Shown: one piece after another, positions 1,048-17,176 of the stretch
Numbering within the stretch: the stretch's first letter is position 1
Layout of the letters: each line of letters starts with the position of its first letter
Assembly: GCF_025133575.1 (NCBI RefSeq)
Contig: NZ_CP104011.1
Span: 310,001-374,000, forward strand
From: Pseudomonas sp. GCEP-101
GTDB lineage: Bacteria; Pseudomonadota; Gammaproteobacteria; Pseudomonadales; Pseudomonadaceae
Direction: 5' to 3'
Length of the DNA: 64,000 nucleotides
Notes under the pieces: generated by a model
The model's database searches: none
The model's input: the letters and a program-made list of their open reading frames with translations, nothing else
What the model was told of the DNA's origin: nothing
Program-made: the position numbers and the translations under genes

Positions 1048-2366
1048 CCATGCCCAATGGCTTCAGCGCCGCCGACGCCGAGCGCCTGAGCGAACAGGAA
1101 CGCCACCTGATCGAGCGCCGCGCGCGCCTGCTCGGCCCGGCCTACCGGCTGTTCTACGAGCGCCCGCTGCACACCGTGCGCGGCGAGGGCGTATGGCTCT
1201 ACGACAACCAGGGCAACCGCTACCTGGACGCCTACAACAACGTCGCCTCCATCGGCCACTGCCACCCGCGCGTGGTGCAGGCCATCGCCAGCCAGGCGGC
1301 CGTGTTGAACACCCACACGCGTTATTTGCAGGAAGGCATCCTCGACTACGCCGAGGACCTGCTCGGCACCTTCCCCGCCGGCCTGGACCAGGTGATGTTC
1401 ACCTGCACCGGCAGCGAAGCCAACGACCTCGCCCTGCGCATCGCCCGCCAGTACACCGGCGGCACCGGGGTGATCATCACCCGCTTCGCCTACCACGGCG
1501 TCACCGGCAGCATTGCCGAGCTGTCGCCGTCCCTCGGCGCGGGCATCACCCTCCCCGCACACGCGCGCACCGTGATTGCGCCAGACGCTTACCGGCTGGG
1601 TGCGGAAAACGTCGGCAAGCTGTTCGCCGACGACGTGCGCGCCGCCATCGCCGACCTGCGCGCCCACGGCATCAAGCCCGCCGCCCTGCTGCTCGACGGC
1701 ATCTTCGCCAGCGACGGCGTGCAGGCCGGCCCCGCCGGCTTCCTCACCGAAGCGGTGAAGGTCGCCCAGGAGGAAGGCCTGCTCTACATCGCCGACGAAG
1801 TGCAAAGCGGCTTCGCCCGCACCGGCGATGCCATGTGGGGCTTCCAGCGCCACGGCGTGCAGCCGGACCTGGTCACCCTGGGCAAGCCCATGGGCAACGG
1901 CCAGCCGATCGCCGGCGTGGTGGTACGCCCCCAAATCCTCGAACGCTTCGGCCGCGAGGTGCGCTACTTCAACACCTTCGGCGGCAACCCGGTGTCCTGC
2001 GCGGCGGCCCAGGCGGTGCTCGACGTGATCCGCGATGAACAGTTGCAGGAACGCTCCCGGCGCATCGGCGCCTTCCTCGCCGACGGCATCCGCCGCTTGG
2101 CCGAGCACCATGAACTGATCGGCGACGTGCGCGGCGCGGGGCTGTTCCTGGGCGTCGAGCTGGTCACCGACCGCGGGACGAAAACGCCGGCCGCCGAGCA
2201 GACGCGCCGGGTGGTCAACGGCATGCGCGAGCGCGGCGTGCTGATCAGCGCGGCGGGGCCGCTGGAGAACATCCTGAAGATTCGCCCGCTGCTGGCCTTC
2301 GAACAGGAGCATGCCGAGCTGTTCATCGACTGCCTGGACAAGGCGCTGGCGGACGTCGCGAGCTGA
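1044..2366 (+). CDS. class-III PLP aminotransferase / phospho-lyase
   Basis: A 440-aa fold-type I, class-III PLP enzyme. Visible motifs in order: TCTGSEAND (about residue 119, cofactor phosphate binding), IADEVQSGF with the pyridine-N aspartate near 251, and LGKPMGNGQP with the Schiff-base lysine near 281. Length is normal. The start at 1044 overlaps the kinase stop by 4 bp. Class III includes omega-aminotransferases and the ethanolamine-phosphate/phosphohydroxylysine phospho-lyases (AGXT2L family). The coupled upstream APH-type kinase favours the phospho-lyase reading: kinase makes a phosphorylated amine, this enzyme eliminates phosphate and ammonia. Alternative: an ordinary diamine or beta-alanine transaminase. 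Confidence 0.85.
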   Translation: MTMPNGFSAADAERLSEQERHLIERRARLLGPAYRLFYERPLHTVRGEGVWLYDNQGNRYLDAYNNVASIGHCHPRVVQAIASQAAVLNTHTRYLQEGILDYAEDLLGTFPAGLDQVMFTCTGSEANDLALRIARQYTGGTGVIITRFAYHGVTGSIAELSPSLGAGITLPAHARTVIAPDAYRLGAENVGKLFADDVRAAIADLRAHGIKPAALLLDGIFASDGVQAGPAGFLTEAVKVAQEEGLLYIADEVQSGFARTGDAMWGFQRHGVQPDLVTLGKPMGNGQPIAGVVVRPQILERFGREVRYFNTFGGNPVSCAAAQAVLDVIRDEQLQERSRRIGAFLADGIRRLAEHHELIGDVRGAGLFLGVELVTDRGTKTPAAEQTRRVVNGMRERGVLISAAGPLENILKIRPLLAFEQEHAELFIDCLDKALADVAS

Positions 2367-2382
2367 AACGGAGCACGGCGCA

Positions 2383-2432
2383 GGATACGCACGGGCGCGG
2401 CCCTGGCCCTGCAGTCCGCGCGTATCCCTTTT
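2383..2432 (+). terminator. possible terminator after the aminotransferase
   Basis: GGATACGC (2383-2390) pairs with GCGTATCC (2420-2427) and is followed by CTTTTG. The loop is long and GC-rich, so it may hold a second small stem. It lies 17 bp after the aminotransferase stop and before the minus-strand gene end at 2457. Confidence 0.45.
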
Positions 2433-2456
2433 GCCGTCATGCCGGGGCGCGGCAGG

Positions 2457-2915
2457 TCAGAAACGCACCCCGACGTTGACCATCGCGGCAGAGGTACCCA
2501 GCACCACCAACTCGGTACCCACCGGACCCAGGTGCGCACCGACCGAAGGAATGATCGCCGGCGCCACGCCGTAGCGGTTCAGCGGGATCTTGTCGCGATA
2601 CTCACCGTGATAGCCCTGCAGCGCGCCGCCGGTGACCTTGGCGTAGAACGGCGTGCCTTCCCAGTCGAAGCGCTTGCCGGCGTAGACATAGTTGGAACGC
2701 TGGCTGAAGGAGTTCCTGAAGGTCGCACCACCGAACACGATGCCATCGGCGCGGTTGCGCTCCAGGCCGATCAGGTTCTGGTGGTTGTTGTGATCCGGGT
2801 CGTTGCTCCAGTGGGTGGTGTACACGCTGGTCTGCAGGTACCAGAAGCCCCCCTCCTCGGCCATGGCGGTGCCACAGCCGAGCAGGGCCAGTGCAGCGAT
2901 CAGCAGGCGGCGCAT
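2457..2915 (-). CDS. small outer-membrane beta-barrel-like protein
   Basis: 152-aa exported protein of unknown function. An N-terminal signal peptide (MRRLLIAALALLGCGTAMA, then EE) is followed by a glycine/aromatic-rich body with alternating hydrophobic strands and a C-terminal phenylalanine (VNVGVRF), the usual ending of outer-membrane barrels. Similar Pseudomonas proteins are sometimes labelled sn-glycerol-3-phosphate transporter, for which I see no support; a PagP/PagL-size barrel is a better structural guess. I chose the ATG at 2915 because AAGGGGG lies about 8 nt upstream; an earlier ATG at 2933 overlaps the preceding stop (ATGA) but would put charged residues before the signal peptide. 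Likely co-transcribed with the SlyB-like lipoprotein gene upstream. Confidence 0.65.
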   Translation of the reverse strand: MRRLLIAALALLGCGTAMAEEGGFWYLQTSVYTTHWSNDPDHNNHQNLIGLERNRADGIVFGGATFRNSFSQRSNYVYAGKRFDWEGTPFYAKVTGGALQGYHGEYRDKIPLNRYGVAPAIIPSVGAHLGPVGTELVVLGTSAAMVNVGVRF

Positions 2916-2929
2916 CCTGTGTGCCCCCT

Positions 2930-3391
2930 TCATATCGTCACGCGGCTGTTGCCGTTGACGGACATGATGCGAACGCGATCACCCACGCGGAACTGCTGGT
3001 TCGCGTCCACCGCCTGGACGTAGGCCCGGGTGCTGCCGTCGTCCTCGCGGACGACGATCTCGACGCCCTGGGTTCGGGTCACGCCTTCTTCCACCGCCGA
3101 ACCGGCCATGCCGCCGGCGACACCGCCAAGAATCGTGGTGATGGCCTGGCCACGGCCGCCGCCGATGGAGCTGCCGGCGATGCCGCCGACCGCCGCGCCG
3201 GCCAGGGTGCCGATGGGCGTCTTGGTGCCCTCGATCTGCACCGGGCGCAGGGATTCGATGGTGCCCATGCGGACGTTCTGCACGGCGCGGGCATCGGCAC
3301 GGGAGTAGGACGAGCCCGACAGGTCGGAGGCGCAGCCGCTCAGCAGAGCGGCACTGGTGAACAAAGCAGTCAGCAGCGTGGAACGGTTCAT
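2930..3391 (-). CDS. SlyB/Pcp-like glycine-zipper lipoprotein (copy 1)
   Basis: 153-aa outer-membrane lipoprotein. Lipobox LLSGC places the acylated cysteine at residue 20. A central glycine-zipper 2TM region (about residues 60-100, GAAVGGIAGSSIGGGRG and similar) is followed by a small beta domain ending RVGDRVRIMSVNG. This is the SlyB/PcpY architecture, a family known to stabilise the outer membrane and to be induced under PhoPQ in enterics. A paralogue lies at 16284-16748, sharing long identical stretches such as QNVRMGTI and REDDGSTRAYVQ. The promoter holds five phased GTTCAG-type repeats (see 3448-3496), which the paralogue lacks. Confidence 0.85.
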   Translation of the reverse strand: MNRSTLLTALFTSAALLSGCASDLSGSSYSRADARAVQNVRMGTIESLRPVQIEGTKTPIGTLAGAAVGGIAGSSIGGGRGQAITTILGGVAGGMAGSAVEEGVTRTQGVEIVVREDDGSTRAYVQAVDANQQFRVGDRVRIMSVNGNSRVTI

Positions 3392-3430
3392 GGTGATTAC
3401 CTCGAGAGGCTTTCAGAAAAGGATGGCGAA

Positions 3431-3496
3431 AGCCTACAGAGGCCCCCCTGAACTCCCACTGAACTCTCCCTGAACCAACGCTGAATGAAGCTGAAC
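3431..3496 (-). promoter_or_regulatory. five phased GTTCAG repeats plus -10, PhoP-box-like
   Basis: Plus-strand CTGAA(C/T) units start at 3448, 3459, 3470, 3481 and 3491, i.e. spacing 11, 11, 11 and 10 bp, one helical turn. Read on the gene strand they are GTTCAG-N5-GTTCAG units. The last unit is separated by exactly 11 nt from TAGGCT (3431-3436), a plausible -10. This geometry (direct hexamer repeats with 5-bp spacers replacing the -35) is that of OmpR-family response-regulator promoters, PhoP in particular. The regulator identity is inference. Confidence 0.7.
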
Positions 3497-3506
3497 GAGA
3501 CCCTCG

Positions 3507-4436
3507 TCAACTTTCCAGGGCGACCAATTGCATCCGGCTCCGCTCGAACCAGCGCAGCAGGTAGTCCGCCAGCAGTTGCGTGCGACGCGGCAGGCGGCTC
3601 TGGTACGGATGGATGAGAAACACCGGCTGGGTCCGGGTCTGGTAGTCGCGCAGCAGCCAGACCAGACTGCCTTCAGCCAATTCCTGCTGAATCATGTAGG
3701 ACGGCAGTCGGCTGATTCCTGCACCTGCCAGTGCCGCTTTCTTCAGCAAGGTGTAGTGGTTGCTCGCCAGCAGCCCGTTCACCGTCACCCGGAACAGCTC
3801 GTGGTGGCGCTGGTACAACCAGACATCGCTGTCCTGGTAGTGCGTGTTCTGCAGGCAGGAATGCCCGGCGAGGTCCGCCGGCGCCTCCGGCACGCCGTGC
3901 TCGGCAAGGTAATCGGGCGTCGCGCAGGTCAGCTCCTGCAGGGCAAAGAGCGGTCGTGCCACCAGGCGCTCGTCCACCGCCAGGTTGCCGGAGCGGATCG
4001 CCAGGTCGAAACCGTCGGCCACCAGGTCGCGGCGCTCGTTGGACAGGTCCAGTTCCAGGCGAATCTCCGGGTACCGGCGGGAAAACTCCATCAGCCAGGC
4101 GTCGAAAAAAGTCTCGCCCAGGGACACCGGCATGCTCAGCCGCACCTTGCCCTGCGCCTCCTCCTGCAATGCCAGCACCGCCCGCCGCGCCCGCGCGGCC
4201 TGGGCATTGAGCGCCTGGGCCTCAGGCAGCAGCGCGGCGCCCGCGGCCGTCAGCGACAGGCGCCGCGTGGTGCGGTGCACCAGCGTCGCGCCCAGCGCCT
4301 GCTCAAGCGCGGAGATCCGCTTGGACAGCTGGCCCTTGCTGCACCCGAGCTTCTCCGCCGCGCGGGTGAAGCTGCCGCACTCCAGCAGGACGGCGAAGGC
4401 GGAGAGGTCTTGCAGATCGCTGGCGATTGTTTCCAT
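3507..4436 (-). CDS. LysR-family transcriptional regulator
   Basis: 309-aa LysR regulator: N-terminal winged helix-turn-helix (about residues 8-66, SFTRAAEKLGCSKGQLSKRISALE), then a two-lobed effector-binding domain containing RLSMPVSLGETFF and DLAIRSG, typical of the CrgA-like subgroup. Divergently transcribed from the short-chain dehydrogenase at 4530, which is its likely target. The 93-bp gap between the genes holds a CTGAAG/CTTCAG palindrome. The effector cannot be read from the sequence. Confidence 0.9.
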   Translation of the reverse strand: METIASDLQDLSAFAVLLECGSFTRAAEKLGCSKGQLSKRISALEQALGATLVHRTTRRLSLTAAGAALLPEAQALNAQAARARRAVLALQEEAQGKVRLSMPVSLGETFFDAWLMEFSRRYPEIRLELDLSNERRDLVADGFDLAIRSGNLAVDERLVARPLFALQELTCATPDYLAEHGVPEAPADLAGHSCLQNTHYQDSDVWLYQRHHELFRVTVNGLLASNHYTLLKKAALAGAGISRLPSYMIQQELAEGSLVWLLRDYQTRTQPVFLIHPYQSRLPRRTQLLADYLLRWFERSRMQLVALES

Positions 4437-16283: not shown

Positions 16284-16748
16284 TCAGTGGCTGACGCGGC
16301 TGGTGCCGTTGACGGTCAGGATGCGCACGCGCTCGCCGACACGGAACACGGCGCCTTCGTCGACCTGCTGAACGTAGGCGCGGGTGCTGCCGTCGTCTTC
16401 GCGAACGGTGATTTCCACGCCCTGGGTACGGGTCAGGCCTTCTTCGGTGGCCGCACCGAGCAGGCCGCCGGCCACGGCGCCGATGATCGCAGTGACATAG
16501 CTGCCCTTGCCGCCACCGATGGCGCTGCCGCCGATACCACCGACCGCGGCGCCGGCCACCGAGCCGATCGGAGTCTTGGTGCCTTCGATTTTCACCGGGC
16601 GCAGGGCCTGGATGGTGCCCATGCGAACGTTCTGCACGGTGCGTGCTTCTTCACGGGTGTAGGTGTCACCGGTCAGGCTGGACTGGCAACCGCCGAGGGT
16701 CATGGCCAGGGCGGCGAAAGTCACGGCGATGAGGGCAGTTTTACGCAT
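16284..16748 (-). CDS. slyB: SlyB/Pcp-like glycine-zipper lipoprotein (copy 2)
   Basis: 154-aa lipoprotein, lipobox TLGGC (Cys21), glycine-zipper core GAAVGGIGGSAIGGGKG and the same C-terminal beta domain as the copy at 2930-3391. GGAGG stands 8 nt before the ATG at 16748. The position beside glycerate kinase and the pha operon matches what I recall for slyB in P. aeruginosa (near PA1053), so this is probably the ancestral copy. No GTTCAG repeats precede it. Confidence 0.87.
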   Translation of the reverse strand: MRKTALIAVTFAALAMTLGGCQSSLTGDTYTREEARTVQNVRMGTIQALRPVKIEGTKTPIGSVAGAAVGGIGGSAIGGGKGSYVTAIIGAVAGGLLGAATEEGLTRTQGVEITVREDDGSTRAYVQQVDEGAVFRVGERVRILTVNGTSRVSH

Positions 16749-16939
16749 TAGGGAACCTCCAAGTAGGGCTACGACTATTAGACTCCGACGGCAACCCACC
16801 TGTCACGCCAGGTCTTGAAACAGCTGATCTCGATTCAGCTTTCGTACAGTTTGTGCCAAAGGCGCCGAAAACGCCTGCTCTGGCTCAGCTTTTCCGGCAT
16901 TAGTATCGATTACGCTGGCGCGCCTGGCAGGAGCACTCC

Positions 16940-17176
16940 ATGGATTATTTCATCATCGTCGTCACCACCGCCGCCGGTCTGTACTTCCACTGGTGGATCT
17001 ACTGGCGCATCCGCCGCTGGATGGACCGCGACCTGGCCCTGTCGCTGGCCGGCGACGATCCGCACAAGCGCAGCTACCTGCTCGAACGCCTCGCCGACGC
17101 CAAGCGCCAGAAGGTGAAGCGCCGCGACCTGCCCGACTGGCTGCAACGCGCTGCCGACGACTACCGCGCCGCCTGA
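16940..17176 (+). CDS. small single-TM protein, unknown function
   Basis: 78-aa protein: one N-terminal hydrophobic segment (YFIIVVTTAAGLYFHWWIYW) and a basic cytoplasmic tail rich in Arg/Lys/Asp. AGGAG lies 8 nt before the ATG. Its 3' end overlaps the convergent glycerate kinase gene by 16 bp. No recognised domain. Confidence 0.7.
   Translation: MDYFIIVVTTAAGLYFHWWIYWRIRRWMDRDLALSLAGDDPHKRSYLLERLADAKRQKVKRRDLPDWLQRAADDYRAA

Follow-up and report, generated by a model that had tools for sequence, protein, structure and literature searches.

A conserved array of four to seven PhoP-box hexamers upstream of slyB1 in Pseudomonas, a predicted multi-unit PhoP operator

The window, a stretch of 64,000 nucleotides from Pseudomonas sp. 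GCEP-101 (contig NZ_CP104011.1, positions 310,001 to 374,000), carries two slyB paralogues. slyB1 (2930–3391, minus strand) encodes a SlyB-like lipoprotein with a glycine zipper (PF05433, E 5e-8, above the cut-off), the translation of which contains an LSGC lipobox and a glycine-zipper 2TM domain. It is directly followed by an outer-membrane protein gene (2457–2915, minus strand), and this adjacency is conserved. The product of the latter had no match in Pfam or NCBIfam; its AlphaFold model consisted of eight beta strands with a mean pLDDT of 81 (12 sequences), and the best PDB match was PagP 1thq (E 2e-4) with a TM of only 0.54 and OmpA close behind. The protein, a probable lipid A-modifying enzyme, is referred to here as PagP-like, not as PagP. 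No terminator-like site was found in 2300–3600, and slyB1 and the PagP-like gene, which the earlier note does not mention, probably form one operon. A LysR-type regulator gene (3507–4436, minus strand; PF03466/PF00126) lies upstream of slyB1, and no Rfam element was found in the region. At three other loci (L089, L098, L101) a PagL-like (lipid A deacylase) gene was seen near slyB1, downstream of it, by eye only.

On the minus strand, the sequence upstream of slyB1 was read directly as GTTCAG-CTTC-ATTCAG-CGTTG-GTTCAG-GGAGA-GTTCAG-TGGGA-GTTCAG-GGGGGCCTCTG-TAGGCT. It contains five RTTCAG units (3448–3496) with start-to-start distances of 10, 11, 11 and 11 bp from distal to proximal. The core is formed by GTTCAG at 3448–3453 (unit 1, nearest to the promoter), 3459–3464 (unit 2) and 3470–3475 (unit 3) and by ATTCAG at 3481–3486 (unit 4), each 11 bp from the preceding one; the distal unit 5, GTTCAG at 3491–3496, follows after 10 bp. 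Unit 1 is separated by 11 nt (3447–3437) from the probable -10 hexamer TAGGCT (3431–3436), which is located about 40 nt from the ATG of slyB1 (3391). The layout given in the earlier note, with five units spaced by 11, 11, 11 and 10 bp and the nearest one 11 nt from a -10, was therefore exact. TAGGCT was present in 17 of the 18 slyB1 loci of the genus, and all the named loci have TAnnCT or a variant close to it. A -35-like partner of TAGGCT was not found, nor was any sigma70-type promoter in 2300–3600.

RTTCAG occurs in 65 copies on both strands of the window, 60 of which are solitary, and forms one five-unit chain. Among 300 windows simulated by a first-order Markov model with the dinucleotide composition of the window, none had a chain of more than two units. 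In the 6.23-Mb genome, exact RTTCAG-N5-RTTCAG was detected eight times, three of these overlapping within the array, and exact three-unit matches were detected only in the slyB1 array. The reversed motif, used as a genome-wide control, gave no three-unit matches even at three mismatches. Since the simulated chains never exceeded two units and the genome has no other exact three-unit array, the array is not explained by chance.

The slyB1 loci were gathered by similarity of the SlyB1 protein and not by the motif, which avoids circularity; a conservation count on motif-selected loci is biased, and the protein-found loci were used instead. Four exact units at 11 bp, unit 1 included, were present in 18/18 genus genomes and in 16/16 named loci with a slyB1 orthologue. 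In the protein-found loci, 23 of the 24 unit columns were invariant versus one to two of the 15 spacer columns; for the named loci plus the window, the latter figure was 1 of 15 (permutation p < 1e-5). Unit 4 begins with G in the other slyB1 loci. The core was kept also in P. alcaligenes and P. alkylphenolica, in which slyB1 adjoins neither a LysR nor a PagP-like gene, and in the protein tree one clade with 100/100 support held all array-bearing loci and none of the slyB2 type. The distal units, in contrast to the core, vary between species: zero to three of them, at 10 bp spacing and with CTTC or GTTC-like spacers, were found in the slyB1 loci of the genus, and unit 5 is present in 17 of 18. 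The array length among the slyB1 loci of sister species is four to seven units. The conservation of all five units in relatives had been named as a check; the constant part is the four core units.

In P. alkylphenolica (L064, L065), slyB1 and its four-unit array lie in an unrelated neighbourhood, and in L064 slyB1 is followed by a tyrosine recombinase-like gene; a horizontal transfer of the gene together with its operator is possible. In another genome (G182:C24:184812-184872), the array consists of six exact units, among which an 11-bp repeat (GTTCAGCGTCG) recurs several times without change; this looks like a recent tandem duplication of a unit. Arrays were found also without slyB1. In one genus member lacking the gene, a six-unit array sits before the PagP-like gene, and in G011 five units at 11 bp precede the PagP-like gene without a -10 at 11 nt. 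Two species with PhoP and the PagP-like gene, but without slyB1, have decayed arrays of one to two units, so that retention of the PagP-like gene does not in every case require a full array.

The box GTTCAG-N5-GTTCAG, given in the earlier note as that of P. aeruginosa PhoP, agrees with the published consensus GTTCAGNNNNNRTTCAG, the R of which corresponds to the A/G variation of unit 4 (PMC3156716). Three overlapping exact matches of the direct repeat GTTCAG-N5-RTTCAG were found in the array. The PhoP ChIP-seq motif of strain PA14 is G/ATTCAG, and PA14 slyB (PA1053) and pagP (PA1343) are bound by PhoP (ChIP-seq, EMSA), activated by it (lacZ) and induced at low magnesium (PMC7916210). The main text of the eLife binding atlas gives no PhoP motif (PMC8041468). 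The genome studied here has an oprH-phoP-phoQ operon (G000:C1:3829441-3832125); the best NCBIfam models of its regulatory genes were PhoP and PhoQ, with scores below the curated cut-offs of these enterobacterial models. Its oprH promoter carries GTTCAG, GTTCAG, CGACAG and GTTCAG spaced by 11 bp, with TAACCT after a further 11 nt, and this register of four positions with a degenerate third one is repeated in nearly all members of the genus. The third unit of the oprH promoters (L218–L240) is mostly CGACAG or GGACAG and alike across most of the genus, suggesting that the weak position is maintained. Exact four-unit arrays were detected in 189 of 399 Pseudomonadaceae genomes, among which P. aeruginosa was not identified, and the reversed control gave none. 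Of 30 such loci read, 25 were before OprH and/or PhoP, two were before slyB1, and three were left unassigned by a simple gene caller. The earlier note held five copies to exceed the usual two-unit box; the published box has two units, and at the chief PhoP promoters of this family a number above two is often seen.

Several other repeats were noticed. An mgtA-like gene for a P-type cation ATPase is preceded by an exact two-unit PhoP box (L034:1501-1517), and a three-unit RTTCAG array with one mismatch (L016:1501-1528) points away from the neighbouring RND-type efflux gene. In L017 (1501-1539), TTAAG-type repeats (PmrA/BqsR-like) abut RTTCAG repeats before a gene for a small BOF-like protein, possibly a two-regulator site. 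L017 and L045 look TTAAG-type (PmrA/BqsR) and were left out of the count of PhoP sites. The other exact two-unit boxes of the genome, L006 (near algD), L007 and L008, have no clear target and may be due to chance.

PhoP orthologues were found in 23 of 25 genus genomes. The two PhoP-less ones (G004, G013) are also without OprH, slyB1, the PagP-like protein and any three-unit array, and retain slyB2; two-unit matches in these genomes, of which there are only two, numbered 0 and 1. The slyB2 upstream sequences of G004 and G013 match those of P. jinjuensis and P. schmalbachii (L082, L093), and the two genomes represent a natural loss of the PhoP system. The PhoP link proposed for slyB is supported: the array tracks PhoP, the genome has oprH-phoP-phoQ, and slyB of PA14 is a bound and activated PhoP target.

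slyB2 (16284–16748, minus strand; PF05433, E 5.5e-7) was present in 25/25 genus genomes. It adjoins an mnhA-like gene, and from this neighbour we take slyB2, not slyB1, to be the likely counterpart of P. aeruginosa PA1053. Direct units were absent upstream of slyB2 in 12/12 genus loci read. The statement of the earlier note that the paralogue at 16284 has no repeats is correct for the array but overlooks an inverted one-mismatch box, ATTCAG-N5-GTACAG (16833–16849, plus strand), which faces the divergent gene at 16940. As read toward slyB2, it is CTGTA(C/T)-N5-CTGAA(C/T) about 100 bp upstream. The inverted box had an 11/12 match in 10/10 PhoP-carrying genomes read and was at background level in both PhoP-less ones; by our own arithmetic, such a 10 versus 2 split across 12 genomes has a chance of 1 in 66, a figure that is weakened by shared descent. 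A sigma70-like promoter of slyB2, GTGACA-N18-TCTAAT (16777–16806, minus strand), was present in 12/12 genus slyB2 loci read, and GTGACA-N17/18-TCTAAT, which is near the sigma70 consensus, was visible also in the wider slyB2 alignment. Salmonella PhoP boxes are active also in reverse orientation, at 30-58 nt upstream of the -10 (PMC3335776). Considering these and the conservation of the inverted box, slyB2 probably keeps a weaker PhoP input. The proposed split of the two lipoproteins by regulation would therefore be graded rather than absolute: a strong PhoP array at one gene and a sigma70-like promoter with one box at the other.

Judged from the sequence, the array is very probably a multi-unit operator for PhoP that switches on slyB1 and the PagP-like gene. 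In the presence of low magnesium or cationic peptides, PhoQ would phosphorylate PhoP, and PhoP dimers would occupy adjacent hexamers head to tail on roughly one face of the helix. As in Salmonella architecture I, the proximal unit, 11 nt from the weak TAnnCT -10, would replace the -35 element, and PhoP would recruit RNA polymerase to slyB1 and to the PagP-like gene that follows. The core of four units, which offers room for two dimers, would be the required operator, and the distal 10-bp units would probably raise the occupancy at lower levels of phosphorylated PhoP, as the second box does in Salmonella architecture II. Cooperative or graded binding of PhoP, as suggested in the earlier note, is plausible for such an arrangement. 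For slyB2, basal expression and a weaker PhoP response are expected from the sigma70-like promoter and the single inverted box.

It is possible, but unlikely, that only the two proximal units function as an ordinary PhoP box, the rest being remnants of tandem duplication that persist through recent descent. Two units make up the published Pseudomonas box (PMC3156716), one related promoter retains two, and the distal units resemble (GTTCAGCTTC)n. In most species, the LysR stop codon is about 20 bp from the core in arrays of five units, 30 bp in those of six and 37 bp in those of seven, and an increase of about 10 bp per unit is what slippage would produce. For the distal units this explanation is viable, as their unit columns are hardly better conserved than their spacer columns. 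The four core units, however, are invariant in about 17 diverged loci and several genomic contexts while the spacers change, and four-unit arrays recur at oprH-phoPQ in the family.

If the array is a PhoP operator, the distal units may have a role of their own. The longer LysR-stop distance per extra unit suggests growth by duplication of helical turns. At 10.5 bp per turn, seven units at 11-11-11-10-10-10 deviate from one face by no more than 51 degrees, and seven units all at 11 bp drift to 103 degrees; the 10-bp distal spacing may have been selected for helical phase. We tentatively suggest, with doubts outweighing confidence, that the promoter is an evolvable rheostat, in which the fixed four-unit, two-dimer core would confer PhoP dependence, gains and losses of distal helical turns would determine how sensitive and how steep the slyB1-PagP response is, and the 10-bp spacing would cancel the phase drift of the 11-bp units.

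That the main binder is another OmpR-family regulator, such as PmrA, BqsR, ParR or CprR, is quite improbable. Hexamers repeated directly every 11 bp are typical of this family as a whole, and TTAAG-type sites overlap RTTCAG elsewhere in the genome (L017); nevertheless, the same array is found at the phoPQ promoter and is missing from the PhoP-less species, and PA14 mutants in PmrA, BqsR, ParR and CprR have unchanged slyB and pagP expression (PMC7916210). A repressing array, or one acting as a terminator or other element of the LysR gene, whose stop codon lies 10 bp before it on the same strand, is hardly credible, as there is no terminator-like or Rfam match, the core persists at loci without a LysR neighbour, and the 11-nt spacing to the conserved -10 is that of Salmonella PhoP-activated promoters (PMC3335776).

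The predicted PhoP operator shares its hexamer, spacing and targets (oprH-phoPQ, slyB, pagP) with the P. aeruginosa PhoP box, but the latter is described as two units, and here a four-unit core is joined by up to three distal units with a spacing of 10 bp. In P. aeruginosa, pagP and slyB are two separate ChIP-seq targets (PMC7916210), whereas here the second slyB copy and the PagP-like gene would share a promoter. Salmonella and E. coli architectures I and II have direct repeats, a 5-nt spacer and slyB and phoP targets in common with the array (PMC3335776). The box of architecture I lies 11-12 nt from the -10, as at Salmonella slyB, phoP and mgtA, and the distance was 11 nt in all slyB1 loci read; in architecture II, a second upstream box increases the output (PMC3335776). 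Their hexamer is (T/G)GTTTA, in one box or two separate boxes, unlike the contiguous phased run here. The complex operators of Streptomyces PhoP likewise have variable counts of 11-nt direct repeats bound head to tail, but the regulator, the sequence and the signal (phosphate) are different (PMC4415409). With architecture II and the multi-unit Streptomyces operators as precedents, this is a known kind of site. The literature searched, most subscription journals lying outside it, contained no description of four to seven contiguous PhoP units that are conserved throughout a bacterial family.

At the principal PhoP promoters of the family, the two-unit Pseudomonas box appears to make up only half of the operator. 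The slyB1 arrays, which vary from four to seven units while the promoter is otherwise constant, form a natural series in which the number and phasing of sites can be related to the dose response, and the species that lost PhoP are its natural control. slyB1 and slyB2 would represent a paralogue pair with PhoP-driven and mostly basal expression, respectively.
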